From Spinacia oleracea (lineage: Eukaryota; Streptophyta; Magnoliopsida; Caryophyllales; Amaranthaceae), in NCBI RefSeq assembly GCF_020520425.1, contig NC_079490.1:5828001-5892000 (forward strand): a DNA stretch of 64,000 nt, written 5' to 3'. Below are positions 12,821 to 32,108 of the stretch, piece by piece. Position numbers and translations under genes: made by a program. The number at the start of each line of letters is the position of its first letter. Position 1 is the stretch's first letter. The notes below the pieces were generated by a model. It was not told where the DNA came from. It was given only the letters and a program-made list of their open reading frames with translations, and ran no database searches.

Positions 12821-13077
12821 CTACCTCTATTTCAAAAAGATCTTTACAGTTACTCTATTTGCACGGACTCCAATGTAATATTTAACTACTAATATATTCA
12901 ATTTCATATGTGAAAAAATTATAAAAATTTGATATTCTGAAAATATATCCCGAGACCAATCTAACAAGATCTTACATGTAACATTTTGATGTATATAATG
13001 GTGAGAATTTATGGTCAAAGTTTTTATACTTTGGACACATTTTCCAAAGCGTAATGAACTTTCTGAAACGGAGTTAG
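12821..13077. mobile_element. Stowaway MITE in the proximal upstream region of the receptor kinase gene
   Basis: TA-flanked; left end CTACCTCTATTTCAAAAAG and right end, reverse-complemented, CTAACTCCGTTTCAGAAAG. It ends 130 bp upstream of the chosen start codon, so it lies within or next to the promoter or leader of the LRR kinase gene. Confidence 0.75.
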
Positions 13078-13207
13078 TAACTATAATGAACTCCTTCATT
13101 GTTCTTCCTCCTCCTTTCCCTTCTTAAATCCAGTTATCCACCTGACCAGTTACCAGTTACCACCCCCAACATTGGTGTCCTACCTTCTTCCCACCATTTA
13201 TTTTTTT

Positions 13208-16200
13208 ATGGCAACGGCTCCTTTTCTTGTCTTTTTCACCATAGCCACCGCCGCCACTTTTACCTCCATTTTCTCCGCCACCACCGTGACGGAGATTGAC
13301 TCACTGCTTGCATTCAAGCTCAACCTCAATGATCCACTTGGTGCCTTAGATGGCTGGGATGCTTCCACTCCGTTAGCCCCCTGTGACTGGCGTGGGGTTA
13401 GCTGTTACTTTAGAAAAGTCCATGAACTCCGCCTCCCACGCCTCCAGCTTCGCGGTGTTCTTTCGCCGGAACTTGCTAATTTACGCCAGTTGGAAGGGTT
13501 AAGCCTTCACTCTAACAACTTCCATGGCTCTCTTCCTCAGTCTCTCTCCTCCCTTACTCTCCTCCGTGCTCTTTACCTCCATAATAATTCCTTTTCTGGA
13601 GATATTCCGTCGGAGATTCTCACTCTTAACAGCTTACAGGTTGTTAATCTCTCCGGTAACTACCTAACGGGAAGAATTTCGGCCGGAATTTCTCCTAACA
13701 TTCGAGTGTTTGACATTTCTCACAATAATTTTTCCGGTGGATTACCGACGAATTTTTCCAGAAGTTTACAGCTGAGACTAATTAATCTCTCTTCCAATAA
13801 ATTCTCCGGCGAGATTCCGGCGAGCATTGGTGCGCTTCAGTCGCTGCAGTACTTATCGCTCGACTCGAATCTCCTCGTTGGAACTATTCCTTCTGCGATC
13901 CTGAGTTGTACTTCACTCGTTCATTTCTCGGCCGACAATAACTTCATCTCCGGCAACGTTCCGGCGACGATTGGAGCATTGCCGTTGCTGGAGGTACTTT
14001 CTCTCTCCTCCAACAACCTCTCTGGTATGGTCCCTGCCTCTGTATTTTGTAATGTATCAAACCCTAGGTCACTTCGAAGCGTTTTCTTGGGTAATAATGC
14101 ATTAACAGGAATGGCAAAGCTGCCAATCGATTGTACATTTAGAAGTGGTTTGGAGGTTTTAGATGTTCATCGGAATAGCATTGTTAGTGAGTTTCCGAAT
14201 TGGGTGGCGGATATTCCTACGTTGAGGGTTCTAGATCTTTCTGGCAACCTCTTCACAGGGTCCCTCTCGAATTTCGGAAATTTGACGAGATTAGAGGAGT
14301 TTAGGGTGGCTAATAATTCTTTAAATGGACAAATTCCTGTTGAAATAGCACAATGTAAATTATTGAGTGTTCTTGATCTTGAAGGGAATCAATTTTCTGG
14401 GGAAATCCCAGGGATTTTTGAAAATTTGAAAAAAATGAGAGTTTTGTCATTAGCAAGGAACAGATTTGTGGGTTCCATTGACATTGATGTGAGTAGCATT
14501 CAGAGTTTGGAAGTATTGAATTTGAGTGAAAATGAGTTGACTGGAGTGGTCCCAAACGAGGTGCTTCAACTCACTAATTTAACCACTTTGAACCTCAGCT
14601 TCAACAATTTTTCTGGGCAGGTTCCTGTAGAAATTGGTGGTTTGAAGAGTTTGAGTGTGTTGAATTTGAGTAACTGTGGCTTTTCGGGTTCGATTCCGAC
14701 TAGCATTGGGAGTATGATGAGGCTAAGAGTTGTAGATTTGAGCAAACAGAATTTATCTGGGAATCTTCCTGTTGAGTTATTTGGGTTACCCAATTTGGAG
14801 GTTGTTGCATTACAGGAGAACAATTTACAAGGGGATACCTCTGTTGTTGAAGGGTTTAGTAGCTTACTTGGGTTGAAATACTTAAATCTTAGCTCCAATT
14901 CGCTATCTGGTAATATTCCGGTAACTTTTGGCTTCCTCCGGTCCTTGAACGTCCTCTCTCTATCTGATAATCGAATCTCCGGTAAAATTCCACCAGAGCT
15001 TGGCAATTGTTCAGAGTTACAAGTAGTTGAAGTTGCGAGGAACCGTTTGGAAGGCAATATTCCGAATTCTTTATCAAGGCTGTCTCATTTGAAAGAGCTT
15101 GATTTAGGTCACAATAATTTGGATGGTGATATTCCAGACAACATTTCCAAATGCTTAAATTTGCAGTATTTGGTTTTGGATTCCAACAATTTATCAGGGT
15201 CAATACCAGGCTCATTGTCACAATTATCAACCTTGCAAAATCTTAATTTGTCATCGAATCATTTGGAAGGAGAAATCCCGAAAACAATAGGGTCTCGCTT
15301 CAGCGATCCTTCGTTGTTTACAAACAACAGAAACCTATGTGGGTATCCATTGAAGAAAGAGTGCTCGTATGTGAAGAAGAAAAGGAGGAAGTTGATGTTG
15401 TTAATTAGTGTTGCAGTTGCAGGGCTTGTTTTCCTAATACTATGTTGTTGTGGCTACATCATAAGCCTCCTGCGTTGGCGTAAAAAGCTGATGACAGGAA
15501 AGAAGAAACCCAGCACACCGAGAAAAAGCTCTGGAACAACAGAAAGAAGTAGAAGAAGCAGTGAAAATGGTACTCCAAAGCTTGTCATGTTCAATAACAA
15601 GATAACCTTAGCAGAAGCCATAGAAGCAACAAGGCAATTTGACGAAGAAAATGTCCTTAGCAGAGGGAAATATGGGATGGTATTCAAGGCATTATTTGCT
15701 GATGGAATGGTCTTAGCAATCAGAAGATTACAAGACGGATTTCTCGATGATCGTGGCTTCAAGAAGGAGGCGGAGATGCTCGGGAAAGTGAAACACAGGA
15801 ATCTAACAGTTTTAAGGGGGTATTATGCCGGTCCACCCGATATAACAAGACTGCTAGTATATGACTACATGCCGAATGGAAACTTGGGTACTCTTCTTCA
15901 AGAAGCGTCTCACCATGACGGGCATGTTCTAAACTGGCCAATGAGGCACTTAATTGCACTCGGTATCGCTCGAGGAATCACGTATTTGCACTCCTTAGAT
16001 ATGGTTCATGGTGATATCAAACCTCAAAATGTGTTGTTTGATGCTGATTTTGAACCACATTTATCAGAATTTGGTCTAGACAGGTTGACAATAGAAGCTT
16101 CAACATCAACACCACAAATCGGAACACTTGGGTATGTAGCCCCGGAAATGGGGTTAACGGGTCATGTGTCGAGAGAAGGGGATATCTATAGTTTTGGGAT

Positions 16201-16507
16201 CGTTTTGTTGGAGATATTGACAGGGAAAAGACCCATTATGTTTGAGCAAGATGATGAAGATATTGTTAAATGGGTCAAGAAACAACTGCAAACAGGTCAA
16301 ATATCCGAGTTACTTGACCCAGGTTTGCTCGAGCTTGACCCGGAATCATCTGAGTGGGAAGAGTTTTTACTTGGGATCAAAGTTGGCCTTCTTTGCACAG
16401 CACTAGACCCGAGTGACAGACCGTCCATGGGCGATATCGTCTTTATGCTTGAAGGTTGTCGGGTAGGACCCGATATACCTTCCGACCTCCCTTCCCCAGC
16501 TGGGTGA
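13208..16507 (+). CDS. LRR receptor-like kinase of the At4g36180/MUSTACHES group, with an atypical kinase domain
   Basis: Intronless frame. I start at the ATG at 13208 (1,099 residues) because MATAPFLVFFTIATAATF makes a clean signal peptide; an in-frame ATG at 13172 would add 12 residues. Order: signal peptide (1-30), LRR N-cap with CDWRGVSC (about 35-80), some twenty leucine-rich repeats, membrane helix LMLLISVAVAGLVFLILCCC (about 727-750), a basic stop-transfer segment, and a kinase-like domain (about 805-1085). The C-terminal EGCRVGPDIPSDLPSPAG closely resembles what I remember of At4g36180. Kinase motifs are altered: the glycine loop reads SRGKYG, VAIK reads LAIRRL, HRD reads HGD and DFG reads SEFG, while APEM is kept. 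HGD and SEFG are, as I recall, normal for this subfamily, so weak or absent catalysis is likely a family trait. MUSTACHES is known to act in stomatal guard-cell wall symmetry; the role here is inference. Confidence 0.92.
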   Translation: MATAPFLVFFTIATAATFTSIFSATTVTEIDSLLAFKLNLNDPLGALDGWDASTPLAPCDWRGVSCYFRKVHELRLPRLQLRGVLSPELANLRQLEGLSLHSNNFHGSLPQSLSSLTLLRALYLHNNSFSGDIPSEILTLNSLQVVNLSGNYLTGRISAGISPNIRVFDISHNNFSGGLPTNFSRSLQLRLINLSSNKFSGEIPASIGALQSLQYLSLDSNLLVGTIPSAILSCTSLVHFSADNNFISGNVPATIGALPLLEVLSLSSNNLSGMVPASVFCNVSNPRSLRSVFLGNNALTGMAKLPIDCTFRSGLEVLDVHRNSIVSEFPNWVADIPTLRVLDLSGNLFTGSLSNFGNLTRLEEFRVANNSLNGQIPVEIAQCKLLSVLDLEGNQFSGEIPGIFENLKKMRVLSLARNRFVGSIDIDVSSIQSLEVLNLSENELTGVVPNEVLQLTNLTTLNLSFNNFSGQVPVEIGGLKSLSVLNLSNCGFSGSIPTSIGSMMRLRVVDLSKQNLSGNLPVELFGLPNLEVVALQENNLQGDTSVVEGFSSLLGLKYLNLSSNSLSGNIPVTFGFLRSLNVLSLSDNRISGKIPPELGNCSELQVVEVARNRLEGNIPNSLSRLSHLKELDLGHNNLDGDIPDNISKCLNLQYLVLDSNNLSGSIPGSLSQLSTLQNLNLSSNHLEGEIPKTIGSRFSDPSLFTNNRNLCGYPLKKECSYVKKKRRKLMLLISVAVAGLVFLILCCCGYIISLLRWRKKLMTGKKKPSTPRKSSGTTERSRRSSENGTPKLVMFNNKITLAEAIEATRQFDEENVLSRGKYGMVFKALFADGMVLAIRRLQDGFLDDRGFKKEAEMLGKVKHRNLTVLRGYYAGPPDITRLLVYDYMPNGNLGTLLQEASHHDGHVLNWPMRHLIALGIARGITYLHSLDMVHGDIKPQNVLFDADFEPHLSEFGLDRLTIEASTSTPQIGTLGYVAPEMGLTGHVSREGDIYSFGIVLLEILTGKRPIMFEQDDEDIVKWVKKQLQTGQISELLDPGLLELDPESSEWEEFLLGIKVGLLCTALDPSDRPSMGDIVFMLEGCRVGPDIPSDLPSPAG

Positions 16508-16616: not shown

Positions 16617-17064
16617 ACCTTCCTGTAACCTGTTAGGTAAGCTTGAACTTAAATTTAGCTGTTTTAGTTGTTCTATCAAATGCATTACATTCTATTGGAT
16701 TTTGTTTGTTGGGTTGTTTTTCTAATAATAATTGTTTGATTTTGGTGGGATTTTATTGCTATTAATTGAATTCATAGCTATTTCCATAATTTCTGGGTGA
16801 GTTGAATACTTAATACTGACTGAATTCTGAATAAAAATTATGCTAAATTTAAGAGACATATGAAATTTCCTGAATATGTTGGAGTGACGTTGTGGATGAT
16901 TGGAAAAAAGGTTGGTTGGTTAAGTGAAGAAAGGAAGGTAATGTGGATTAAGCCATGTATAATTTTTGATTTCAGGAGAAGTTTATGCTTGATTGAGTTG
17001 ATTACCTTATTTAGTCATTTGTGTTTAAGAGTTGCAACATTTGCTGAAATTTGGTTTTTGCAGT
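16617..17064 (-). repeat. Inverted duplicate of the 1190-1612 region, left part (interrupted by the LTR retrotransposon)
   Basis: The reverse complement of 1190-1612 aligns with this stretch. Shared markers in order are CCTGTTAGGTAAGCT (the exon-1 donor), TGCATTACATTCTATTGG, CTTAATACTGACTGAATTCT, CCTGAATATGTTGGAGT, GAAGGAAGGTAATGTGGA and TTTCAGGAGAAGT. It begins about 110 bp after the receptor kinase stop codon. The copy has small indels, including an extra TTAGCTGTTTTAGTTG, so it is not very recent. The counterpart continues after the retrotransposon at 32109. Confidence 0.85.
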
Positions 17065-17858
17065 TGTAGACACTAAAAATTTATAATGTATTACAATTTA
17101 AATAAATTAATTATTTTGGACCGATATCATAATATTAATCCATCTTAATTAATTTAGCCCACCCAAATTAAATATCTGAATTACTCAAATACGATTTGGA
17201 TCATATATTTTTGGGCTAGGTCATATTGTTAACCCGAAATAAACAAACCAAGTGGACCAGGTTAAAGACTCTCAAGTCACAAAATGGGCCCGAGCCTAAA
17301 CCTATCAAGTCCAGTAAAGAAGTTTTCATCTCCTATAAATACTTCTCGTCTACTTCAGTGGCGGGGGATCGGAAATTCATTATTCTCAAGAGTCCATAAA
17401 TTCTCTGGGAATTCTCTCTGAAAGTAGTCAATAAACACATCAAATTTGTGTCGACTGCTTAACCAAACTCAAACTTAGGTTGACATCATCAGACGATTGT
17501 CACCCTAAACTCAAACTCAGGTTGACGTCATCAGACGACTGTCACCCTAAACTCAAACTCAGGTTGACGTCATCAGACGACTGTCACCCTAAACTCAAAC
17601 TCAGGTTGACGTCATCAGACGACTGTCACCCTAAACTCAAACTCAGGTTGACGTCATCAGACGACTGTCACCCTAAAACCAAATTCAGGTGTCATACACG
17701 TGTCACCATCAGCTGCGGAACAAAATCAGAGGACTTAGTTTATTTTCTTGTAAACTGTCAATTACAGAGATTGTACCCAAACATTCAAATATCAATAAAA
17801 ATATTTTGTTACATTATTTTCTATCTTATTTTCCTAGACTAGAAAATTTGTGTAAACA
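17065..17858 (+). repeat. 5' LTR of the Tat element
   Basis: 794 bp, TG...CA. A TATA box (CTATAAATA) lies at about 17333-17341, so transcription should start near 17365. Downstream of it, in the transcribed leader, is a five-copy 42-bp array. Confidence 0.93.
17462..17685 (+). repeat. Five-copy 42-bp tandem array with TGACGTCA cores inside the LTR
   Basis: The unit is 42 bp (ACTCAAACTCAGGTTGACGT begins it). Four copies contain the palindrome TGACGTCA, the classic bZIP/TGA-factor core; the first has TGACATCA. The same array is at 31707-31930 in the 3' LTR. It lies downstream of the TATA box, so it is transcribed in the leader. Confidence 0.85.
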
Positions 17859-17863
17859 AATTT

Positions 17864-17881
17864 TGGCACGCTCGGTGGGAC
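17864..17881 (+). promoter_or_regulatory. Primer-binding-site region of the Tat element
   Basis: Immediately after the 5' LTR, TGGCACGCTCGGTGGGAC starts with the TGG expected to pair with a tRNA CCA end. I did not assign the tRNA. Confidence 0.6.
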
Positions 17882-17907
17882 ATTCTCTGCCTCTCATCTC
17901 TGTTTCC

Positions 17908-20900
17908 ATGGATCCAAAGAAAATTGGCTCTCAACCCGCTGGCGCGACATCTGTCACGGTTCAGGAGCGAGCTGCAGCATTGGCTGCAATGTTCCAGAAC
18001 ACTGGTATCATTACGAGAGGAATGCGGAAGAAGAATACTGCCTCTGCTGTAGCAGATCTGCAAACTGCATGCGTTCCTACCAAGGCGCGCAAACACCATG
18101 CTTTTCCCTCAGTTCCTAAGGTGTTTGTCACACCTTCCTCTCAAAGTTCACATGAAGTCCGTGTATTCGGTTCATTTCCAGCTGAACTGGAACAACATCC
18201 TGTTGCTTCTCTTAAACTGAAGCAAAACTTTCTTGGAGCTTATGACAAGATGGTCATCCACAATAGCCCACTCTTCGAATTTTATGACGGAGAGAACAAC
18301 TCTGAAACTGGTAGTGTTTCTCCAACTGCGACATTCGAAGAGGTACCTGGTTCCGAAGACCCCTTTGAGTTCTCACATGCAGATACTGCGTCTGTAATGG
18401 TGATTAATGCGAAAACTGTGGAGGAGCAACTTGCTGAGATGAGGGTTCTTCTCGAACGGCTAAAGGCGGATGGAGAAGAAAAAGATGCTAAAATCAAGCA
18501 TCTAACTAAGAAGCTTAACAAACGTCCTACAAACACCCCTTCAAGTCACGGGAGTTCTGAGAGTGATGGTGATAGCTCTGACTCTAGTAGTCATTCAGGT
18601 GGCTCTGTCAAAGTCAATGCCAAAAAAATACAAGACATGGTAGCCAAAGCTATCAAAAGTGAACTGGGAGGAGGCTCTCACGGCAATCAGCGTTACGTCA
18701 AACCTTATACGAAGAGAATTGACAAGCTGCGGATGCCAACAGGTTACCATCCACCAAAATTCAACCAATTTGATGGGAAGGGTAATCCCAAGCAGCATGT
18801 CGCACACTTCATAGAGACATGTAACAATGGCGGTACAACAGACGATTTGCTCATTAAGCAATTTGTCCGTTCTCTCAAAGGGACTGCCTTTGATTGGTAC
18901 ACTGGTCTGCCCGCGCAATCCATTGATAGTTGGGATCAAATGGAGACGGAGTTTTACAAAAGGTTCTTTAGCACTCAACGCGTAGTTAGCATGACAGAGC
19001 TAACGCAAACTGAACAATGGAAGGATGAGCCGGTCCTTGAGTACATCAACCGTTGGCGCGCGTTGAGTTTGGAATGCAAAGATCGTCTGACTGAAACTTC
19101 TGCTGTAGAAATGTGCATCAATGGAATGGACTGGGATCTTCTTTATATCTTACAGGGTATAAGGCCGAGATCATTTCAAGAGCTGGCAACGAGGGCTCAT
19201 GATATGGAGATCTCCCTGAAAAACAAGAAAAAGGGGACTTCTTCGGAAGCAAAGAAAGAGAAGAAGGAATACACTAAGGTTGAGAAACCTTTCAAGAGTC
19301 TGACTAAGGAGACCATGTCAGTAACTACTAGTTCAGCGCCTATCAAGATTTCAGGAAAGGCAAAGGAGGAATACAAAGCCTCATCTTCCAGATTTGTCAA
19401 GAGTGACAAGCCTACCTTGAAAGAGTTGCAGGCTAAGAAGTACCCCTTCCCAGACTCCGACTTGCCTGGCATGTTGGATGACTTGCTTAAAAATAAAGTC
19501 ATAGAACTTCCCGAGTCCAAGCGACCTGAACAAATGGGAAGAACTTCCGATCCTAAATACTGCCCATATCATAGGCTGGTGAGTCATCCTATCGAAAAAT
19601 GCATAACTCTTAAGGAGAAGATTATGCAACTTGCTAAAGATGGGAAGATTGTACTTGATCTTGATGAGGCGGTTACAACTAATCACGCTTCAGTAGTTTG
19701 TGAATCACTTCTGCAGGCTCAAACCCTACAATTTGGAAGTTTAGAGCCAGTAATTGTCTACGTGATCAGACCAGCAGTTCAACATGATGATGTGTTGCCA
19801 GTTGAACACGAGGAGGATGACGGAGGGTGGACGGTTGTCACAAGTAAAAGGCCGAGAAAACAAGTACACAGGCCACAACCGCAACCCCCTCGTCACAAGA
19901 AGAAACCACAAAAGAAAAAGAGCGACAAGCGCTCGAAAGAAAAAAAGAAGTTTAGGGGTGCTAACAAACAGACTGTGCTCCCTATCGATATTCTTGAACA
20001 GGAGCCTTTGGATCCTGTAACTTTGGAAGAATTTTTTCCAGAAGATTACTTTACTGCAGTGACTGTCAATACAGTCTCATTCATTGAGGGTGAGGAGGAA
20101 CTAGTCGGTGAAGAAGCGACGTCCATAAAATTGACCTCACCACATTCTGAACCAGTGGTAGATTCAAAAGTTGCCGCTATCTTAGAAGCGTTGCCATCAC
20201 GTATGGGCTGGAAGCAAATTTTCCATTTGCCTAAGGAAATGTGTCAACAGGTGGCCCTTGCCCTCCAACACCCGGAATTATATGTTGACAAGGTAAAGGA
20301 TGCTGGGGATCCTGCGGAAAATTCGGCCAAATGTTTGTCCTGTAATACAGCTTTAGCCTTTACAGATGATGATTTGCTCATGGGGTCAAAGCCCCACAAT
20401 CGACCTTTGTTTGTGTCTGGCTATATTCGTGAACAAAAAGTTGGTCGTATCTTGGTCGACGGTGGATCCGCTGTCAACATCATGCCAAAATCCACAATGA
20501 TTGATTTGGGGATAAAAACAAATGAATTGTCAACCAGTCGGATCGTCATTCAAGGATTTAACCTTGACAGCCAGAGGGCAATAGGCATAATACGCCTCGA
20601 ACTCACCATGGGGGAGTTGACATCATCTACCCTTTTCCACGTGATTGACACAAAAACGTCTTACAAGATGTTACTTGGACGCCCTTGGCTTCATGAAAAT
20701 GGTGTCGTCGCTTCGACCCTCCACCAATGTCTCAAATACTATCGTGGAGGTGAAAAGAAAATCAATGGGGATGTCAAACCTTTCGCCAAGGCCGATTCCT
20801 ACTTCGCTGACGCAAAATTTTTTGAAGATGAAGGGGCGTCAAGTGAGATACTGCCATCTCAAATCCTCTCTACAGGCAAGAAGGATGATAAGAAGAAAGT

Positions 20901-23900
20901 TGATTCATCCTTAATCCCTAAGGAGCCGCCGATTCAGAGGAAAGAAATTCAGAAGGAAAAGGTGACTAAAGAGGTTGTCACTCAACCCACCCAAAAGGCA
21001 AAAGCGTCGTCGACCGCCCCTATCCTGCGGTACATCCCAAAGTCGCAACGCAAAGAAGGAGAATCACCATTTGAGGAATGCCAGGACCCTAAAATTGAGG
21101 GAAAGGTGGAGAAGAAAGTTGATGAAGTCGCTCTCCAAGACTTGAAGAGTAAAACAATCTTTCCCCTAGCTAAGGGTAAAAAGAATCGAATCATCAAGTC
21201 GCCTACAGTTGAAGAACCTTCAGGAGTCAAGGAGCTAAACAAAGAAAAGTTTGACCCGAATGCATATAAGCTCCTGGCGAAGTCGGGATATGATTTTGAA
21301 AACCCAACACCTATGGGTAAAGTCATTGATGCTAAACCTCATGGTCTCAATGACACACAAAAGAAACTTCTGGAGTACGGTGACGGGTTTCAAGAATCCA
21401 AGACGGGGATAGGATTTAAACGCCCTACACCAGTCAAAATCTCGATATGGCGAAAAGTGAATACCTCATCTTCACAGTATATAACTGCAGAAGAGGTTGA
21501 AGAAAATAAAGTTGAAAGTGATGGTCGGCCAGAAAAGACTTCTGTTTTTGATCGACTGTGTCCACCTGCAACTAAGAACCAGGCATCTGTGTTTGACAGG
21601 CTTGGTGAACATGATAGTATGAGGAAGATATCATCAAGTCCTCAGACAAAGAGGAAAGGATCCGTCTTTAGTCGTGTCGGCGTGTCATCCATGCCTGACG
21701 ACCAACCAAGACGTTCGGCACTTAGTCGCATCAGGAAGAGAAATGATGATGCAAGAAAAAATGACGACGCAAAGGAAAGTGATGACGCAAGAAGTGTGGT
21801 TCCCTCCCGCATGAAACGTACTCAAGACATAGACATCACCGAACAACAACCTCTTAAAGCAAGGGTTCGTACTGTGGTGTTTACCAATCAGGAGAAGTCA
21901 TCTGATAATTTTGCGGAGGACGACCGAGAGTTTGTTTCCTCTAATCATGTGACAGCGCAAGAAGTCTCAAATTCTGATGAAGAAATAGAGACCGAGGTGG
22001 CTCCCAAAATACTTGAAGATGGGGGGCAGACGACTGTGGACGAACTAAAAGAGTTAAACCTTGGAACTCTTGAAGAACCACGTCCTGTGTATGTTAGCTC
22101 TCTTCTCACTCAAGAGGAAGAACATGAGTATGCTGAATTACTCTCAGAGTTTAAAGACGTCTTTGCTTGGAGCTATAAAGAAATGCCTGGTCTCGACCCG
22201 AGAATTGCTGTCCATCGCTTGGCGATAAAAAAGGGTGTTAGTCCAAAGAAACAATCTCAAAGACGTTTTAGACCGGAGTTGATCCCTGAAATTGAATCCG
22301 AGGTAAACAAACTTATTGGTGCAGACTTTATTCGTGAAGTCAAATACCCCACATGGATAGCAAATGTAGTCCCCGTGAGAAAGAAAAATGGACAATTACG
22401 GGTTTGTGTGGACTTTCGTGACTTGAACGAAGCATGCCCGAAAGACGATTTCCCGCTACCAGTCACGGAAATAATGATAGATGCTACGACTGGTCATGAA
22501 GCATTGTCTTTCATGGACTGTACAGCCGGATACAATCAAATCCGCATGGCTCCCGAAGATCAAGAAGCGACAGCGTTCCGCACACCGAAAGGGATATTTT
22601 GCTATAAAGTCATGCCCTTTGGATTGAAGAACGCAGGAGCCACGTATCAACGTGCGATGCAGAAAATTTTTGAAGACATGATGCACAAGATAGTGGAATG
22701 CTACGTTGATGACTTAGTAGTCAAGTCCAAAAAGAGGGAGAGTCATTTATCTGATCTCCGCAAAGTCTTTGAAAGATTACGAAAATGTCAACTAAAAATG
22801 AATCCCCTTAAATGCGCATTCGGTGTCACATCTGGAAAATTTCTAGGTTTCATTGTCAGGCATAGGGGTATCGAAATTGATCAGACAAAGATTAAGGCAA
22901 TCCAAGAGATGCCCGAACCTCGAAACCTTAAAGAACTTCGTGGTCTTCAGGGGCGTTTGGCATACATTCGAAGGTTCATCTCCAACCTTGCTGGGAGATG
23001 TCACCCATTCAACCATCTCATGAAAAAAGATACTTCGTTTGACTGGGATGACTCGTGTCGAAAGGCATTCGAAAGCATAAAAAAGTATTTGTCTTCTCCA
23101 CCAGTGTTGGGGGCACCAGTCAAAGGAAAACCTCTTATCCTTTACATTGCTGCACAAGAGCGGTCGTTGGGGGCAATGTGCGCTCAAGAAATAGAGGATC
23201 GCAAAGAGACGGCTCTTTACTACCTGAGTCGGACTTTGGTGGGTGCTGAATTGAACTACTCACCCATTGAAAAAATTTGTCTTGCTTTGGTTTTTGCCAT
23301 CCAAAAGTTAAAGCATTACATGCAGGCTCATACAGTCCATGTCATCTCAAAAGCTGACCCAATCAAGTATATCCTTTCAAGACCAGTTCTCTCAGGACGA
23401 CTTGCTAAATGGGTTGTACTCATAAAACAATATGACATTGTGTACGTGCCGCAAAAATCGGTCAAAGGTCAAGCAATAGCAGATTTCTTTGCAGATCATC
23501 CAGTGCCACCTGAATGGGAGCTTTCTGTTGATTTGCCTGGGGAGGATGTGTTCTATATTGACGTACTCCCACCTTGGGAAATGTATTTTGACGGGGCTGC
23601 TCGTCAAGATGGCGCGGGAGCTGGGGTTGTCTTTTTGTCTCCAGAAAAGCATGTTCTGACTTACTCGTTTGTGTTAACTCAGTTATGCTCAAATAATATG
23701 GCCGAATACCAAGCCCTCATTCTAGGCCTCCAAATGGCTGTGGGACTAGGATTAAAGGACTTGGATATTTACGGAGACTCACAGCTAGTGATTAGCCAAC
23801 TCTTAGGAGAATATGAAGTCAAGAAAGAGGATTTAATTCCTCATCACAGACATGCAACAAAATTGCTTGAGAAGCTTGACACTGTTAAGTTAAATCATGT

Positions 23901-25338
23901 CCCAAGGAGTGCCAACAAAATGGCTGACGCACTTGCAGGGCTTGCAGCCACTTTGGCACTGGGGGCAGAAGAAACCATGTCAGTACCGGTTTGTAACCGT
24001 TGGGTCGTTGCGTCAGACATAGACGAAATTGAAGATGAGGAATATGAGGAAGTCGACATGATCACTGTTCATCAAATTGACCAAGAAGATTGGCGTCAAC
24101 CAATTGTTGACTATCTAAGTCATCAAAAATTGCCTAGTGACCCAAGGCATAGAATGGAGATTCGTCGTCGAGCCCCTCGATTTATACTTTTTAATGGAAC
24201 TTTGTTTCGACGATCTTTCAACCACTCATGGTCGAGATGCATCGGAGACGAGGAAACAATGAAAGCCATGGAAGAGGCTCACGCTGGAATTTGTGGTGCA
24301 CATCAATCAGGTCCTAAATTGTATGATTGCCTTAAAACAATGGGCTATTATTGGCCAACAATGGTGCAAGATAGCATGGACTACGCGAAGAAATGTGAAG
24401 CTTGTCAGTTTCATGCTAATTTCATCCACCAGCCTCCAGAACCATTGCACCCTACGGTCTCATCTTGGCCTTTTGAAGCATGGGGACTTGACGTGGTTGG
24501 TCCAATTACACCAAAGTCGTCTGCGGGTCAAGCATATATCTTAGCAGCAACTGATTATTTCTCTAAGTGGGCGGAGGCCATTCCTCTTCGCGAGGTCAAG
24601 AAAGAAAATGTCGTCGAATTCATTCGTACCCACATCATTTACAGGTACGGTATACCTCGACGGATCATCACTGACAATGGGAAGCCATTCTTCAACACAT
24701 TGATGACAAGTCTTTGTGAGAAGTTTAAATTCACGCAGCATAAATCGTCCATGTACAACGCTCCTGCAAATGGCCTAGCGGAAGCCTTCAATAAAACACT
24801 TTGTAAATTGTTGAGCAAAGTTGTTTCAAAATCAAAACGCGACTGGCATGAAAGTATAGGGGAAGCTCTTTGGGCTTACAGGACGTCATACAAAACAGCA
24901 ACACAATCAACCCCATACGCTTTGGTGTATGGTGTCGAATCTATTTTGCCTTTGGAACTTCAAATTCCATCATTGCGAGTAGCTATTCAAGAAGGGTTGA
25001 CTAAGGATGATAATGACAAACTTCGTCTAGCAGAGTTAGAGGCACTTGACGAGAAAAGACTGCAGGCACAACAGAAATCGGAATGCTATCAGGCTCGTCT
25101 GTCACGCGCATTCAACAAGAAAGTTCGACCTCGCTCTTTTCAAGTGGGGGACATAGTTCTAGCAGTGAGACGACCTATCATTACTTCACGTAAGACTGGA
25201 AGTAAATTCACTTCAAAATGGGATGGTCCGTATGTTGTGCAAGAGGTATACACTAATGGGGCTTACAAAATCGTTGACGCAGAAGGACTACGCGTGGGGC
25301 CTATCAACGGCAAGTTTATAAAGCGGTACTACTCATGA
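17908..25338 (+). CDS. gag-pol polyprotein of the Tat-lineage retrotransposon
   Basis: One open frame of 2,476 residues from the ATG at 17908 (MDPKKIGSQPAG); the frame extends further upstream into the LTR, but this ATG sits just after the primer site. Regions in order: N-terminal gag; the Retrotrans_gag core around 18690-19000 (PPKFNQFDGKGNPKQHVAHF, FDWYTGLP); a basic segment; aspartic protease near 20450 (LVDGGSAVNIMPK); a linker with repeated SVFDRL-like motifs (21540-21720); reverse transcriptase about 22190-22870 with YVDD near 22702; native RNase H about 23120-23330; a second, archaeal-type RNase H from about 23580 (MYFDGAARQDGAGAG, YGDSQLVI); and integrase from about 24280 with the HHCC zinc region, catalytic core (LDVVGPI, ITDNGKP) and C-terminal part. 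Protease, RT, RNase H and integrase are all recognisable; the frame looks whole. Confidence 0.93.
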   Translation: MDPKKIGSQPAGATSVTVQERAAALAAMFQNTGIITRGMRKKNTASAVADLQTACVPTKARKHHAFPSVPKVFVTPSSQSSHEVRVFGSFPAELEQHPVASLKLKQNFLGAYDKMVIHNSPLFEFYDGENNSETGSVSPTATFEEVPGSEDPFEFSHADTASVMVINAKTVEEQLAEMRVLLERLKADGEEKDAKIKHLTKKLNKRPTNTPSSHGSSESDGDSSDSSSHSGGSVKVNAKKIQDMVAKAIKSELGGGSHGNQRYVKPYTKRIDKLRMPTGYHPPKFNQFDGKGNPKQHVAHFIETCNNGGTTDDLLIKQFVRSLKGTAFDWYTGLPAQSIDSWDQMETEFYKRFFSTQRVVSMTELTQTEQWKDEPVLEYINRWRALSLECKDRLTETSAVEMCINGMDWDLLYILQGIRPRSFQELATRAHDMEISLKNKKKGTSSEAKKEKKEYTKVEKPFKSLTKETMSVTTSSAPIKISGKAKEEYKASSSRFVKSDKPTLKELQAKKYPFPDSDLPGMLDDLLKNKVIELPESKRPEQMGRTSDPKYCPYHRLVSHPIEKCITLKEKIMQLAKDGKIVLDLDEAVTTNHASVVCESLLQAQTLQFGSLEPVIVYVIRPAVQHDDVLPVEHEEDDGGWTVVTSKRPRKQVHRPQPQPPRHKKKPQKKKSDKRSKEKKKFRGANKQTVLPIDILEQEPLDPVTLEEFFPEDYFTAVTVNTVSFIEGEEELVGEEATSIKLTSPHSEPVVDSKVAAILEALPSRMGWKQIFHLPKEMCQQVALALQHPELYVDKVKDAGDPAENSAKCLSCNTALAFTDDDLLMGSKPHNRPLFVSGYIREQKVGRILVDGGSAVNIMPKSTMIDLGIKTNELSTSRIVIQGFNLDSQRAIGIIRLELTMGELTSSTLFHVIDTKTSYKMLLGRPWLHENGVVASTLHQCLKYYRGGEKKINGDVKPFAKADSYFADAKFFEDEGASSEILPSQILSTGKKDDKKKVDSSLIPKEPPIQRKEIQKEKVTKEVVTQPTQKAKASSTAPILRYIPKSQRKEGESPFEECQDPKIEGKVEKKVDEVALQDLKSKTIFPLAKGKKNRIIKSPTVEEPSGVKELNKEKFDPNAYKLLAKSGYDFENPTPMGKVIDAKPHGLNDTQKKLLEYGDGFQESKTGIGFKRPTPVKISIWRKVNTSSSQYITAEEVEENKVESDGRPEKTSVFDRLCPPATKNQASVFDRLGEHDSMRKISSSPQTKRKGSVFSRVGVSSMPDDQPRRSALSRIRKRNDDARKNDDAKESDDARSVVPSRMKRTQDIDITEQQPLKARVRTVVFTNQEKSSDNFAEDDREFVSSNHVTAQEVSNSDEEIETEVAPKILEDGGQTTVDELKELNLGTLEEPRPVYVSSLLTQEEEHEYAELLSEFKDVFAWSYKEMPGLDPRIAVHRLAIKKGVSPKKQSQRRFRPELIPEIESEVNKLIGADFIREVKYPTWIANVVPVRKKNGQLRVCVDFRDLNEACPKDDFPLPVTEIMIDATTGHEALSFMDCTAGYNQIRMAPEDQEATAFRTPKGIFCYKVMPFGLKNAGATYQRAMQKIFEDMMHKIVECYVDDLVVKSKKRESHLSDLRKVFERLRKCQLKMNPLKCAFGVTSGKFLGFIVRHRGIEIDQTKIKAIQEMPEPRNLKELRGLQGRLAYIRRFISNLAGRCHPFNHLMKKDTSFDWDDSCRKAFESIKKYLSSPPVLGAPVKGKPLILYIAAQERSLGAMCAQEIEDRKETALYYLSRTLVGAELNYSPIEKICLALVFAIQKLKHYMQAHTVHVISKADPIKYILSRPVLSGRLAKWVVLIKQYDIVYVPQKSVKGQAIADFFADHPVPPEWELSVDLPGEDVFYIDVLPPWEMYFDGAARQDGAGAGVVFLSPEKHVLTYSFVLTQLCSNNMAEYQALILGLQMAVGLGLKDLDIYGDSQLVISQLLGEYEVKKEDLIPHHRHATKLLEKLDTVKLNHVPRSANKMADALAGLAATLALGAEETMSVPVCNRWVVASDIDEIEDEEYEEVDMITVHQIDQEDWRQPIVDYLSHQKLPSDPRHRMEIRRRAPRFILFNGTLFRRSFNHSWSRCIGDEETMKAMEEAHAGICGAHQSGPKLYDCLKTMGYYWPTMVQDSMDYAKKCEACQFHANFIHQPPEPLHPTVSSWPFEAWGLDVVGPITPKSSAGQAYILAATDYFSKWAEAIPLREVKKENVVEFIRTHIIYRYGIPRRIITDNGKPFFNTLMTSLCEKFKFTQHKSSMYNAPANGLAEAFNKTLCKLLSKVVSKSKRDWHESIGEALWAYRTSYKTATQSTPYALVYGVESILPLELQIPSLRVAIQEGLTKDDNDKLRLAELEALDEKRLQAQQKSECYQARLSRAFNKKVRPRSFQVGDIVLAVRRPIITSRKTGSKFTSKWDGPYVVQEVYTNGAYKIVDAEGLRVGPINGKFIKRYYS

Positions 25339-25552
25339 AAAGTGGAATCTTTGTAAACTCCTAAGTAAGAGGATAAACTGCTCGCCCAAAAGAAACAAAA
25401 AAAAAAAGAAAAAAAAAGAGATGGGTGTTGAACTACGTTGGCTTGATCTTGTAAAGTAAATCATCAATTATTTTGCAAGTACGTAGGCAGCTTGAGTAAC
25501 AAAAAAAAAAAACTATTCAAGTGCAGCCACACCAAAAAAAAAAAATCACAAA

Positions 25553-25665
25553 CATTACTACACTCCTGGCCCGCAAGAGTCTAAACTGTGAACGGCAAAA
25601 TAATTATTCATTACTACACTCCTGGCCCGCAAGAGTCTAAACTGTGAACGGCAAAATAATAAACA
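25553..25665. repeat. Two-copy ~60-bp tandem repeat between gag-pol and the antisense gene
   Basis: ATTACTACACTCCTGGCCCG through ACTGTGAACGGCAAAATAAT occurs twice, essentially identical. It lies in the gap between the two convergent coding regions, where their 3' ends and terminators should be. Confidence 0.85.
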
Positions 25666-25761
25666 AAATATGTTCATGTGATAAGTATGAGTAATGACAA
25701 GTATTTAGACAATACATCAGACAAAAAAGAAAGGAAAGCAAATAAAAAAAAAGATACGCCT

Positions 25762-28700
25762 TCACTCCATCCACTCATAGGGCTTAATCATGGATTGAAG
25801 CTCTTGTAGGTGCGTCTTCTGTTCTTCGAGTTGAGAGATCTCTTCGGCACTCACAAAAGGCGTTGATTCCAATTCGTCAAGACTTTGCTTCGCAACCTTT
25901 ACTTGATCCTCAAGAGATGCCAAAGATGTACCACTAGTCGCCAAGTCACCTACCAAGTAACTCTTGATCTCACGAGCTTCCTTCAATTCAACTTCAAGAC
26001 TGTTTATCTTCTTCGTGATCGCGACATCCTGTTCCTCCAGCTGTTTCTGCCTTTCCCGTGCCTCGGCAAAGTCAGACTCGACTTGTCTAATCACCTCAGC
26101 TTGGGCGTGTATCTCACGCTCCACCTGGTCAGATCTCTGTCGCTTCGCTGCAGCCTCTTCCAACGCAAGATAAGACTTGACAGACCAAACATAGGAGTCT
26201 ACCTTGCGTTTCAACAAACTTGGATCACCTCTAAGTTGTTGGATTCCCTTATACACCATGGAAGCTTCTTCGTATCTTTGGGTAACCTCGAGAAAGGGTG
26301 TGCTCTGCAATAGGCGTAAATATTCTGCACCTATCAGTTTTACTGCATTATTGAAGATAGTAGAAGAATTTGGACCCGGACGAAAAGAACTAACAGACAT
26401 GGCATGGGTATGAACAGTCTTCGATACATGATTAGAGACATTCACGGGAGAAGGTCGAACGCCCAAAGCCTTAGAAGCAACTTCAAGAGAGTTAGGGCCG
26501 TCGACTGATTGTTGACTTTTGGGGGAAGATGATAAGTTGACATTCGAATTCATCTGCGCCGAGCCTAGGGGAGCCAAGTCCTTTATGACAGTCAACCCTT
26601 TCCCTTTTCCAGGAGTTGATCTAGGGAGAAACGGGTCGTCACCCTGTGCAAACAGATAGTCAGTCGCAGTATTCCCTATATCAACTTCCAAGTCGAGATC
26701 ACCGTCCTGCAAGTTAAAAATAAATAAATTGAGGGACGATTATTTTGTTTGGTTGATAGGGTGTTACTTTCTTTACAAGATATGCTAGACAGAAATGTTA
26801 AGGAAAAATCTGACAGTAAGTAAATAAGAAGTACTCACTATTTCAAGGTTGGATGGTACAACGGATGATTCGGGAACGTCCAAGAAAAACCTATCAGCGC
26901 CCAAGTAGTCGACGTCCATACTTAAGTCATCAGAGTTTTGTCTTACCCTTCGTCTGTGTTTGAAGTCGACATCAGACTCGGCATCGCTAGCAGTCTTATC
27001 ATTGTTGTCAAGTCCAATCAACGGGCGTTGAGCACTGTCTATTCTGGAAGAACGTCGTTTACGACTGTCGTCAGTCCCCTCCGGATGCATGACATCACTT
27101 CTTTGACGAAGTACCCCTTTCTCGTTACCTTGACATTGTTTAGGCTTGGACGTGTCAGACACTGCACCCGAACAAAGAACATCAACACCTTTTCTCAAAT
27201 CGCCTATACTTATTGTAGGCCACACCTTTTTGAACTCAGGTGTCACCAATTCCTTCCAATTGAGAGACTGACTTGGGGTGAATACTCGAGATCGACTGTC
27301 TTTGAAGAGTATGATTGACCAATACCTCAATGCCTCATAGTAAGTTACACTTCGCTCGTCCACACCACGACGAAGTACACCTGTGATCTCTTGACAAAAA
27401 CCGAATTGTCTACCAAATCGATGAGGGGAATATGGTTCAACATAAAAATGACCATCATGAGATTCACGGCGCAAAACAAGATAACTTGAGCGAAGAGCCA
27501 TCATGTAACTAAACTTCACTTTATCTAAGTTACCATCGTCAAACAAACGCTCATTCCTATTTTTGTTCAACATCATGCAACCCACATTCATTTTCGCCCC
27601 ACCATGTATAAGAGTGCGTGCATCACCGTCATTGAAATATTTTGACCCCTGCGCCCCTGAATATATGACCATTAAAGGCCCGAATGGAACAGGATCAGCA
27701 TCGTGATGAGTGTTGAAATAATATGCAAGCCAAGCATAGAGATAATGAGCTGGGAAGAAAGTCTTGGAATAGGAGGGCTTCGAATTGCTTGAAATGCTAT
27801 TTAAACCACGGTAAATGCTGGTAAGCACAGGCACCGCAAGACTAAACGTCTCACCTCGCGCCATCAGAGTAGCAGTCTCAAAGGTTCCCGGTCTAATCAG
27901 CCTGTCCTCAGACTGAGGAAGCACAAATGTACACAACCAGCACGATAAAAAGGCTCCAACATAAGTGATTGCTCTCCTGTTAGCGCCAACAACTCCAAGA
28001 GATTCAAACAAGTCATTTTCTTCTTGTGACCAAGATATTGGTTGAGCTTCAATGTTCACATCAGGGTTGTTAGTAACCTTCGGGCGACTCTCGGTATACC
28101 TTCGTCTTTTAAGAGGGACTTTGTGAATCCTTTCCCTTTTGCACCAAAAGTCAATCCATAACTGAGCGGTAACCCCTTTCTTTGACTTAGGATCCTTTGC
28201 AAGTCGATGATAGACTGTAAAGAGAATTACGCAAGCTTGAGATATTTGTCGATTACCATTCTCATCTCGCGCTCCAAGCATATGATAATCAGGGATCGTC
28301 TCATCATATATTCCTCCAAGAATGGGCAACCCCCCAAGCTTATAAACATCCCATAGAGAAACGGACCATTCCCCAGTCATGATATGGAGTGTGTTTGTAG
28401 TGGGGCTCCAGCTCTCACAAAAAGCACGGATAATGTTGGGGTCTTTATCGTATAAACAAAGAGAAGCCTGAACTGCCTTGTACACTGAGCAAACACGAAG
28501 AATGTCTCCAAAGCGGGATAATACATCTTCTGTCCACTCCCACCAGCCAGGAAGAAAAGATGCCTCGCCAGAGACCCTTAAATTTTTGGACTTCCAGCCC
28601 ACTGAACCCGAAAGAATACGACGACCAAGCATTGGAGACAAGGCATCTAGTTGATACCTATCAGGGAGAGTGCTTTTGAGAACATAAAAAGGGGGATCAC

Positions 28701-28901
28701 TAGAAGTTCCTGGAGTCACTTGGATCGCCATCTCACTGCGAAAGATTGACTGATCAAGAGATGCTCTCATGCTGCCAGTAGGGCGCCGAAGTGACCTTTG
28801 AATGATAAAATGGGTTCCAGTTTTTGGATCATCTTCCTCAGCGTCTCTAATCGAAAGATGAATGTCATCACCTTTCTTGAACTCTGAAAGATATACCATT
28901 C
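25762..28901 (-). CDS. Antisense gene of the retrotransposon encoding a plant mobile domain (PMD) protein
   Basis: Opposite in direction to gag-pol and convergent with it. The upstream part, from the ATG at 28899 (MVYLSEFKKGDDIHLS), has a PMD-type region about 28560-27650: PGWWEWTEDVLSRFG, IIRAFCESWSPTTNTLH, GEWSVSLWDVYKLGGLPILG, then the long helical region typical of MAIN/MAIL and retroelement PMD proteins. It is followed by basic patches (SRKRRSSRID, KHRRRVRQN). A canonical GT-AG intron appears at 26707-26838 (donor ATA|GTGAGT, acceptor TTGCAG|GACGG). The downstream exon (26706-25762) encodes an acidic start and a long coiled coil, ending KPYEWME. An acceptor-like TTGCAG just above 28901 suggests a further 5' exon I could not place. 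Antisense extra genes are known in Tat-lineage elements; their role is unsettled. Frames look open. Confidence 0.8.
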
Positions 28902-28984
28902 CTGCAATGACAACAAGAAAGGATGAGAAAGAATCAAACGGGATTGACAAACAAAAAAACTTGGTTGCTAATGACATTAGGCGG

Positions 28985-29349
28985 TCTTCAAACGGATCAT
29001 CTGAGGATGACAGGTTCACTGTGCAAACACGATGACCTGACACCCCTGATGGGTTCACTGAGCAAACACGATGACCCATCACGATAAATCCTCCTTCAAA
29101 AGCATCCAGGTCTTCAAACGGATCATCTGAGGATGACAGGTTCACTGTGCAAACACGATGACCTGACACCCCTGATGGGTTCACTGAGCAAACACGATGA
29201 CCCATCACGATAAATCCTCCTTCAAAAGCATCCAGGTCTTCAAACGGATCATCTGAGGATGACAGGTTCATTGTGCAAACACGATGACCCGACATCCCTG
29301 ATGGGTTCACTGAGCAAACACGATGACCCATCACGATAAATCCTCCTTC
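28985..29349. repeat. Three-copy 126-bp tandem array upstream of the antisense gene
   Basis: Units start at 28985, 29111 and 29237 (TCTTCAAACGGATCATCTGA). The period is exactly 42 codons, and on the minus strand all copies stay open, encoding GHRVC(T/S)VN twice per unit plus SSDDPFEDLDAFEGGF. Each unit also contains an internal half-repeat (CAAACACGATGACC). It could be a 5' exon of the antisense gene or an untranslated array. Confidence 0.85.
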
Positions 29350-31291
29350 TTTCCATTTGAGCCTCCACTAAGTTGCAAAAAGAAAAATACGCATATACAA
29401 AAAAAAAAAGTGCAAAAAAAAAAAAGAGTCTAAAAGGGTGTACAACAATCACCTTACTTAGTCTATATCCCTGACTGTGTCTCAAGTACGAGGCGGTGAA
29501 ACAATAAGTCTGTCAGAATTGAAGACCTACACACACAAAATTCAAACGTATTAAGGATACACCCCTTCCCACCTCAATAAGAATATATACGGAGTAATAA
29601 TGCCAAAATTTGAATTAATATATACTTCGTATCAAACTATTGGTATAGTTATTTGAGGTTCTTTCGACAAACGGCACGCGAGTATCTCTAATTACACATT
29701 GGCAAATAAACGCGAACAACAACATACAAATGAGACAACATTGCCGAACAAGAGTCGATGTCGATATTTTTCTTGAAAATTTACAGGATGATGATATTGG
29801 GTATGCAGAAAAGTCGATAAAATGCTATTGTAAATAAAGATATAGAAAGTTCGACTTAGTACGCTAAAAAAAATAATGACCCTGATTATTTGACTTTAGA
29901 TCCTGCGGATGAGATAAATAAAAGGGGCCTCATTATTACTAATCAAGGATGTTGCAGATGGTATGGATGCATGTCAAATGTCCAAGTTCAACAACTACGT
30001 CAATCAAAGGATAAAGGATAATTACTCTTTTGATTTAATTAATTACTTATGATGATGATGACTACGATGCCGACACATTTATCAAATGCAATGCAATGCA
30101 AACGGATACAATACACATATCTAATTAAGTCCACTGTCATGAGATTTCAGTTTGGCGGTTTAAAAAAGAAAATTCATAAAATCAGATAAACGCCTAAATT
30201 GTCATAAGAGGGCAGCATGTATCAAATATTTAAGTTGAGATATATTACTGGGCATTACAGGTCGTATCAAAGAAGTAAAATGCTTACCGGTTCCGAGTCG
30301 AACGATTGATATTTCGTGTAGAAACTCTACTTCCGGTTGATATCAGGAAAGGGTGTACAAACACCTGCTACAAAACAGAAGAAAAGGAAGATTATAATCA
30401 CTTAGTGGCTTAGTTGTTGATCTTTCAATTAAAAATGAAGAGAGAATCGCTATTCACAAAGTTAGATGCTTGCTTGGGGTTTACTTTGCATATTATGAAA
30501 AATATATCATGCGTTCAGTGTGCAAATTCGAGGTTAAAAAAAAAAAGGGAATCACAAACCATAGCAATTGCAGTGGCCATAGAAATACCAAGTACGGAGT
30601 ACACGGCAATGGCATTACCAAAATAAGCCCTAACTATAAAGACGATAATTCTTTGAGAATGAAAGAAATTGATATATTGATAATCAATGTTTTAAGGGTG
30701 GAGGGTGACTCTCACCGGGAAACACAAAGCATATTGTTTAATGTGTCAAAACATATCATGTCTTATACATCATCAAAAAAAATACAAGAGGGGATGAAGT
30801 GATATTAATTACCTCTGATGAAGCACTACTGTCGACCGAGAGCGAAGATTTATAGATTATTGGGCTTTCGTGTGTGCTACTACACTCCCTGTATTGTAGT
30901 TGTGGGAAAGGGATGAGTCCTCTTGTTTTTATAAGTTGTGGGGGATCTCTAAGTGCAAAGTACAAAACCTAGTACAACTCTAATTTACAGATGACAAGGA
31001 TTTTGTTTGACGTGTTATATACTCCGTATTCTATAAGTTGAACATAAACAGGAAACATGGTTTTGGATGCAAGATGGGTGCAAGCTAAAAAAAATAATTA
31101 AAAAAAAAAAAATCCTATTACGATTAGGATTCTTGGATGTCCAGGCTCTTGTATACTGCCGGATAGAAATCAAGTGAGATATAAACAGGAGATTGTCAGA
31201 CTGTCAAGTCAAGCTTAAGCTGAGAGACTGTCAAGTCATGATGGTTCGAGACCACGTCACGCTCAAACACTTCAAGTTGTATGTGTGACAT
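29350..31291. other. Noncoding 3' region of the Tat element; presumed promoter region of the antisense gene
   Basis: AT-rich with short frames only and no domain recognised. By position it should carry the minus-strand promoter and leader of the antisense gene, but I could not point to a specific TATA box with confidence. Confidence 0.4.
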
Positions 31292-31309
31292 AGTCTCGAG
31301 GGGGCAATT
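31292..31309 (+). promoter_or_regulatory. Polypurine tract of the Tat element
   Basis: CTCGAGGGGGCAATT directly precedes the 3' LTR; the purine run GAGGGGG is the expected plus-strand primer. Confidence 0.75.
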
Positions 31310-32103
31310 TGTAGACACTAAAAATTTATAATGTATTACAATTTAAATAAATTAATTATTTTGGACCGATATCATAATATTAATCCATCTTAATTAATTT
31401 AGCCCACCCAAATTAAATATCTGAATTACTCAAATACGATTTGGATCATATATTTTTGGGCTAGGTCATATTGTTAACCCGAAATAAACAAACCAAGTGG
31501 ACCAGGTTAAAGACTCTCAAGTCACAAAATGGGCCCGAGCCTAAACCTATCAAGTCCAGTAAAGAAGTTTTCATCTCCTATAAATACTTCTCGTCTACTT
31601 CAGTGGCGGGGGATCGGAAATTCATTATTCTCAAGAGTCCATAAATTCTCTGGGAATTCTCTCTGAAAGTAGTCAATAAACACATCAAATTTGTGTCGAC
31701 TGCTTAACCAAACTCAAACTTAGGTTGACATCATCAGACGATTGTCACCCTAAACTCAAACTCAGGTTGACGTCATCAGACGACTGTCACCCTAAACTCA
31801 AACTCAGGTTGACGTCATCAGACGACTGTCACCCTAAACTCAAACTCAGGTTGACGTCATCAGACGACTGTCACCCTAAACTCAAACTCAGGTTGACGTC
31901 ATCAGACGACTGTCACCCTAAAACCAAATTCAGGTGTCATACACGTGTCACCATCAGCTGCGGAACAAAATCAGAGGACTTAGTTTATTTTCTTGTAAAC
32001 TGTCAATTACAGAGATTGTACCCAAACATTCAAATATCAATAAAAATATTTTGTTACATTATTTTCTATCTTATTTTCCTAGACTAGAAAATTTGTGTAA
32101 ACA
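31310..32103 (+). repeat. 3' LTR of the Tat element
   Basis: 794 bp, same length as the 5' LTR. I saw no base difference on side-by-side reading. It includes the same five-copy 42-bp array. Confidence 0.93.
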
Positions 32104-32108
32104 GCAGT

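Follow-up and report, generated by a model that had tools for sequence, protein, structure and literature searches.

The window (the whole stretch of 64,000 nucleotides of Spinacia oleracea DNA analysed here) contains at positions 17065-32103 a complete Ty3/gypsy LTR retrotransposon of the Tat type. Its 5' LTR (17065-17858; 794 bp, bounded by TG...CA and containing 42-bp tandem repeats) is identical over 794 bp to its 3' LTR (31310-32103), and a 5-bp target-site duplication read from the sequence, GCAGT, flanks the element at 17060-17064 and 32104-32108 (all plus strand). Given the identical LTRs and the presence of GCAGT at both sides, the insertion is young, as the original prediction had stated. 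Gag-pol occupies a single open frame on the plus strand (17677-25338; 2553 codons), in which the first methionine past the LTR, counted on the translation, lies at 17908 (gag-pol, 17908-25338). Profile matches place gag, reverse transcriptase, RNase H, a second RNase H-like stretch and integrase in this order, while a protease match was weak and below the cut-off. An additional RNase H is the hallmark of Tat elements and lies between RNase H and integrase in angiosperm Ogre and Retand elements (PMC6317226). Two RNase H-like stretches likewise precede the integrase in the pol of the window element (window:20377-25335; RNase H-like, residues 890-1019; RVT_3/RNase_H, 1068-1190; integrase from 1292), which agrees with the predicted Tat assignment. 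The 15-base complement of its primer binding site-like sequence occurs at 119 places in the genome, and no tRNA gene was found in the 4 places inspected; the type described for Ogre is tRNA-Arg (PMC9289625).

Structure of the antisense gene

Four stop-to-stop frames of at least 220 codons were found in the window: gag-pol, a neighbouring frame of 1146 codons, and two minus-strand frames at 25762-26739 (325 codons) and 26785-29367 (860 codons). The latter two lie past gag-pol and convergent with it, between pol and the 3' LTR, as had been predicted. Splicing at a predicted GT-AG intron of 132 bp (26707-26838, minus strand, from 26838 to 26707) would join them in phase 0 into a protein of 1001 amino acids starting at the ATG at 28899. 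Coding exon 1 (26839-28899, minus strand) comprises 687 amino acids and coding exon 2 (25762-26706, minus strand) 314 amino acids plus the stop codon; exon 2 is stop-free in 16 of 18 full-length (1-314) genome matches.

A search of each exon with the Pfam plant mobile domain (PMD) model PF10536 bore out the proposed PMD: exon 1 matched at 27352-28485 (minus strand; residues 295-672 of the 860-codon frame, model positions 2-306 of 347) with E = 8.9e-27 and 94.6 bits, above the Pfam gathering cut-off of 34.9. The C-terminal coiled coil was upheld in so far as exon 2 is coiled-coil-like in character; its matches were weak, generic coiled-coil matches, all under their cut-offs. Neither antisense exon matched PF04195 (TRP28), a family with at least 150 matches elsewhere in the genome (150 of 2698 candidates scored). 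Exon 1 found no match among PDB chains at E up to 1, a single-sequence AlphaFold2 model of the PMD core reached a pLDDT of 30.6, and none of 149 pattern stretches in viral contigs was confirmed as a relative by tblastn.

The reading frame upstream of exon 1 crosses 2.9 copies of a 126-bp tandem repeat (28983-29349, minus strand), and is open there because 126 is divisible by 3. A predicted 3' splice acceptor, CAG (28902-28904, minus strand), lies just ahead of the ATG at 28899 in the context CAG/GA ATG (a slash marks the splice boundary). This start is common to the window gene and to a copy of a second, distant family described below (L073), where an AG is likewise followed by the ATG (TAG/GAACAAAGAGTCACC ATG); in L037 the open frame starts 12 codons ahead of the homologous methionine. 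Because of the acceptor followed by ATG, its recurrence in L073 and the frame start in L037, the repeats probably belong to the 5' UTR despite being in frame. Alternatively, an ATG within the repeats may serve as start and add an N-terminal extension. Such an extension is absent from L073, and in L023 and L024, which have largely lost the repeats, it is down to about 15 codons (open frames of 719 and 718 codons against the 704-residue query). Of the gene extent first proposed (25762-29349), the end at 25762 was thus retained, while its final ~450 bp precede the probable start.

A predicted non-coding 5'-UTR exon (30288-30367, minus strand) with acceptor TAG/CAG and donor CCG/GTAAGC was located further upstream. 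Both of its splice sites are kept in L012, a copy with a different promoter type (type B), as TTGCAG/CAG and CAACCG/GTAAGT, although the surrounding sequence has diverged. A predicted TATA box, TATAAAA, lies at 30927-30933 (minus strand). TATAAAA in similar surroundings was present in 6 of 15 LTR-side loci scanned (L060, L063, L064, L068-L070) and was not found in L023 or L024; in 4 copies that have the same promoter type as the window, the compared stretch ends short of the box position. In a third promoter type (type C; L011, followed with L082), CAACTTATAAA is collinear with the TATA box of the window. Altogether the box was found in four promoter versions. These conserved signals suggest that the antisense gene is transcribed from a TATA promoter of its own, situated roughly 0.4 kb from the 3' LTR, and that its 5' UTR is spliced. 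To this extent the promoter postulated in the original prediction is backed by predicted signs, with UTR splice sites kept in one version other than that of the window.

Copies in the genome and selection on the antisense gene

The genome was searched with exon 1, yielding at least 67 matches (63 of 196 candidates scored, so that all counts are lower bounds), and with exon 2, yielding 36 matches, which were paired with the exon 1 copies by their coordinates. At least 16 copies of exon 1, window included, were near-full and 96-100% identical (L009-L024). Both exons were complete and open in 11 of these 16, the failing copies being L012, L020, L021, L022 and L023.

Relative to the window, exon 1 showed dN/dS of 0.30-0.33 in L023, L024, L027, L031 and L035 (dS 0.06-0.22; Fisher p from 7e-5 to 7e-14), and of 0.12-0.13 in L028, L033, L034 and L037, members of a subfamily of 51-54% identity for which dS is about 2 and thus saturated. 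Four control frames in the same alignments, two of them shifted on the coding strand and two read from the opposite strand, gave dN/dS of 0.63-1.64. The fifth control frame, on the opposite strand, gave 0.31-0.48 but contained 31-48 stops, and we read its low values as mirroring the third codon positions. Low values were also obtained for exon 2 in four of five copies tested (L027, 0.34; L035, 0.30; L034, 0.16; L033, 0.20). No selection signal was seen for exon 1 of L021 (0.54), L022 (0.85), L026 (0.55) and L030 (0.51), nor for exon 2 of L021 (0.62), L022 (0.48), L023 (1.33), L024 (0.76; p = 0.60), L026 (0.67), L030 (0.92), L031 (0.69), L032 (0.53) and L038 (1.63); several of these exon 2 matches are partial or short, and L032 and L035 are one copy, as are L030 and L038. 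For the youngest copies, each single dN/dS value is based on very few changes, and the values scatter widely. When the young copies L009-L019 were pooled, 6 synonymous and 12 non-synonymous changes were counted in exon 1, and 7 of each, with one stop, in exon 2. Changes among these young copies look neutral. These comparisons indicate that the antisense gene has been under purifying selection across the history of the element, frame-specifically in exon 1, in line with the expectation that the frame is maintained among related copies.

For pol, dN/dS was obtained in 7 of 15 copies: 0.24 in L024, 0.34 in L022, 0.26 in L013 and 0.65 in L019, and, from very few changes, 0.57 in L011, 0.99 in L015 and an undefined value in L010. 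In the two best-compared copies, L024 (exon 1 0.33, pol 0.24) and L022 (exon 1 0.85, pol 0.34), the antisense gene is constrained somewhat less than pol. We are highly confident that the antisense unit is a genuine protein-coding gene of the element.

Exchange of control regions between copies

Fifteen copies were set against the window. Their pol, exon 1 and exon 2 sequences, where present, were 97-100% identical to it (pol was not found in L021 and L023 and was covered to 4% in L012; exon 2 was not found in L020). The promoter and 5'-UTR region of the antisense gene (29403-31309) behaved differently, with breakpoints near 29403 and 29596. Four copies (L010, L014, L018, L019) carry a block of the window type, 99-100% identical at 29.6-30.4 kb. 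The upstream block of six others (L012, L015, L016, L020, L021, L022) is 77-79% identical over 25-42% of its length, and that of L023 and L024 is 75.5-75.7% identical over 33-51%. In L011, L013 and L017 the block has no match to the window at all, yet these three are mutually 99.9-100% identical over 1 kb. Mixed arrangements also occur: L014 combines the window block at 29.6-30.4 kb with a type B-like end and LTR (87.0% and 89.2%), and L018 combines it with an LTR of 86.9% identity, the LTR identities covering part of the LTR for some copies. The same breakpoints recur on different chromosomes.

A mere lack of constraint upstream of the gene was considered as the cause of this divergence and rejected. 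Of 15 copies, 11 have a block that either aligns in part, at 75-79% identity, or does not align at all. The intron, by contrast, has 0-3 differences from the window in 14 of the 16 copies compared (in the exceptions, L020 and L025, exon 2 is out of place), and the pol-side flank has 0-17 differences in 12 of them (exceptions L020, L021, L023 and L025). Since intron and pol-side flank are near-identical among the copies, low constraint does not account for the divergence, and the swaps were likely produced by template switching during reverse transcription.

A second element family and the relationship to host PMD proteins

At least 20 further places in the genome, and one short fragment not counted among them, match exon 1 at 34-40% identity. 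In 12 of the 20 the frame is uninterrupted over 674-703 codons. The layout of this second family was read in one copy, L073, whose left end resembles the 3' end of pol (74% over 838 bp). Its minus strand, antisense to the adjoining pol, carries a PMD frame of 687 codons, a GT/AG intron and a coiled-coil-like frame of 269 codons. Exon order as well as place and phase (0) of the intron equal those of the window gene, which lends support to the intron first predicted from the window. Homology of exon 2 between the families was not significant by BLAST (E = 0.039), so that the case for a common exon 2 is built on its position, its phase and its coiled-coil-like nature. Window and L073 differ by 345 synonymous changes at 430 sites and 756 non-synonymous changes at 1508 sites; synonymous sites are thus changed at the higher rate, and they are saturated.

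An unrooted tree built from 19 PMDs found in this genome unites the three PMDs carried by retrotransposons in a single clade (support 100/100), which sits on a long stem of 2.69 changes per column. This clade is nearer to a group (L001-L008) that is presumably PMD-B-like by its motifs, and stands apart from a group (L074-L081) that is presumably MAIN/MAIL-like (PMD-C) by the same kind of motifs.

Discussion

The kind of element described here, a gypsy element bearing a PMD, and the leading idea on its function are already published, as the literature on PMD-A, Ogre, Retand and Grande attests. Throughout the angiosperms, PMD-A1 and PMD-A2 are exclusive to gypsy elements, which encode them (Ikeda et al. 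2017, PMC5418596), and the two families found here may be these two. That study, in the parts drawn on, gives no account of the exon structure, orientation, promoter and selection presented here. The original prediction held that Tat elements sometimes carry antisense genes, which understates the published picture: antisense ORFs occur in all young Retand clusters studied, 97% of them with TRP28 (PF04195) (Vicient 2025, PMC11963269), and a PMD occurs in 57% of Ogre elements, while 23% of Retand elements have Transposase_28 (Neumann et al. 2019, PMC6317226). Like Ogre, the window element is a long Tat element with a PMD in its extra ORF, but its gag-pol is uninterrupted, whereas a putative intron separates Gag and Pol in Ogre (PMC9289625). 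With Retand it shares an antisense ORF between pol and 3' LTR and tandem repeats in that region; it has a PMD where Retand has TRP28, and its matches to the Mitotic checkpoint protein family PF05557, which also matches Retand antisense ORFs, are below the cut-off (PMC11963269). Maize Grande is described as having an antisense promoter of its own and an antisense-encoded protein located in the nucleus (PMC7264820). The parts of this literature covered, which leave aside Steinbauerova et al. 2011, hold no account of the exon-intron layout, of a selection test or of promoter swapping.

How might such a gene serve the element? We picture a young Tat-type Ty3/gypsy retrotransposon equipped with a second transcription unit of its own. 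As the introns of that unit are antisense to the genomic RNA, they would escape removal during retrotransposition, so that the gene persists as a spliced gene. Its protein would enter the nucleus, where the coiled coil would let it oligomerise, and would raise expression of the element by interfering with host silencing or transcription complexes, possible targets being the complexes of the host PMD proteins MAIN and MAIL1 with PP7L. The host proteins, which like PP7L act in transposon silencing (PMC7156037), share the PMD with the element protein but are mostly encoded by standalone genes, whereas the element gene is mobile, has a coiled-coil-like exon behind its PMD exon and carries a PMD that belongs to a separate clade. 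A counter-silencing role for element PMDs has been proposed before (PMC8616336). We tentatively favour a nuclear regulator or anti-silencing factor over a part in particle assembly or integration, at a confidence that falls somewhat short of even; no feature of the sequence favours anti-silencing over another role.

Rather unlikely, in our estimate, is an accessory structural or integration factor, i.e. a PMD-coiled-coil protein that acts in the particle, in nuclear import or in the choice of integration sites and leaves silencing untouched. The gene does stay with gag-pol in most copies examined, and an analogy to retroviral accessory proteins has been drawn (PMC7264820). However, a promoter of its own, and control regions that are swapped independently of the coding sequence, would suit a regulator better than a protein needed in step with gag, and the related PMD proteins of the host function in transcription and silencing (PMC7156037, PMC5418596). 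We consider it improbable that the antisense RNA is the working product, pairing with the genomic RNA and setting copy number through small RNAs while the protein is incidental: such a role has been discussed (PMC7264820) and the layout of the unit makes it complementary to the 3' portion of the genomic RNA, but selection specific to the antisense coding frame is unexpected for a non-coding role.

The prediction that the gene is a diverted copy of a host silencing gene did not hold as regards a recent capture. Transduction of a MAIN/MAIL-like gene into the element would fit the PMD common to host proteins, and the intron would argue against entry as a spliced mRNA copy in the present orientation. 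Such a recent capture is nevertheless very improbable, because the element PMDs form a deep clade of their own on a long stem, the two element families are just 37-38% identical, and element-only PMD-A clades span the angiosperms (PMC5418596). An ancient capture of a host PMD gene is possible. That the gene is a functionless selfish passenger or decaying leftover, as the absence of selection among young copies and the stops in some copies might suggest, is scarcely credible against frame-specific dN/dS of 0.12-0.33 in nine diverged copies and reading frames that are open across the two exons in 11 of the 16 near-full copies.

Returning to the nuclear regulator, the exchange of control regions allows a further and more speculative reading, which we regard as doubtful. 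Near-constant gag-pol and PMD-coiled-coil modules would be combined, through recombination, with changing versions of the antisense promoter/5'-UTR block and of the LTR; the swaps would evade homology-based silencing of promoters, and the PMD protein would at the same time weaken silencing in trans. The element would then be a retrotransposon counterpart to the arms race of VANDAL transposons and their VANC proteins (PMC10398659, PMC5735166). The proposed logic is alike, with element-encoded counter-silencing and non-coding regions engaged in an arms race, but element type and protein differ, and anti-silencing by the window element is a proposal.

PMD proteins connect transposons with host silencing. 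Whether transposon or host was the first to possess the domain is fully open according to Ikeda et al., who lean towards domestication from an element (PMC5418596). To this the window element adds the layout of the antisense gene and the way in which its control region gets swapped among copies. With a young family that has open frames and a predicted promoter, splice sites and start, next to a distant second family, the counter-silencing role (PMC8616336) becomes testable within one plant, and the swapped control regions on constant coding regions constitute a natural experiment on which promoter versions escape silencing.

A further version of the predicted antisense promoter

Three near-full genomic copies of exon 1 of the predicted antisense gene (L011, L013 and L017), located on two chromosomes (C6 and C5), have in common a 1-kb region 5' of the gene. 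Comparison of this region with the corresponding region of the window by blastn yielded zero matches. Despite the absent blastn match, its TATA box is collinear with that of the window, and the region also contains an acceptor-like CAG followed by exon bases similar to those of the window. Judged by its sequence, the shared region is an additional version of the predicted antisense promoter.

Gag-pol losses and repeats in the element and its copies

Exon 1 of the antisense gene, which encodes the plant mobile domain (PMD), is open in each of three copies with gaps in gag-pol: L016 (locus L049) lacks approximately 1.0 kb of gag-pol sequence, L017 (locus L050) lacks approximately 2.9 kb, and for L012 (locus L045) the stretch fetched contains only 190 bp of pol.

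A repeat search of the element revealed 42-bp tandem repeats (5.4 copies), one set per LTR (17465-17690 and 31710-31935), and a perfect 56-bp duplication (25553-25660) in the spacer that separates the pol end from the antisense stop codon. By a rough count over 15 LTR-side loci, several of which hold a partial LTR, 3 to 8 of the 42-bp units were present in 13 and none in the other two (L071 and L072). Approximately 560 bp separate the 5' LTR from the end of an uninterrupted open frame of 1146 codons (13067-16507, plus strand), which, by eye, reads like a leucine-rich-repeat receptor kinase.

Another PMD group in the genome

A separate PMD group comprises nine places (G000, C5:16448825 and similar) matching positions 12-296 of the domain model, each with 4-6 in-frame stops. 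This group looks amplified.
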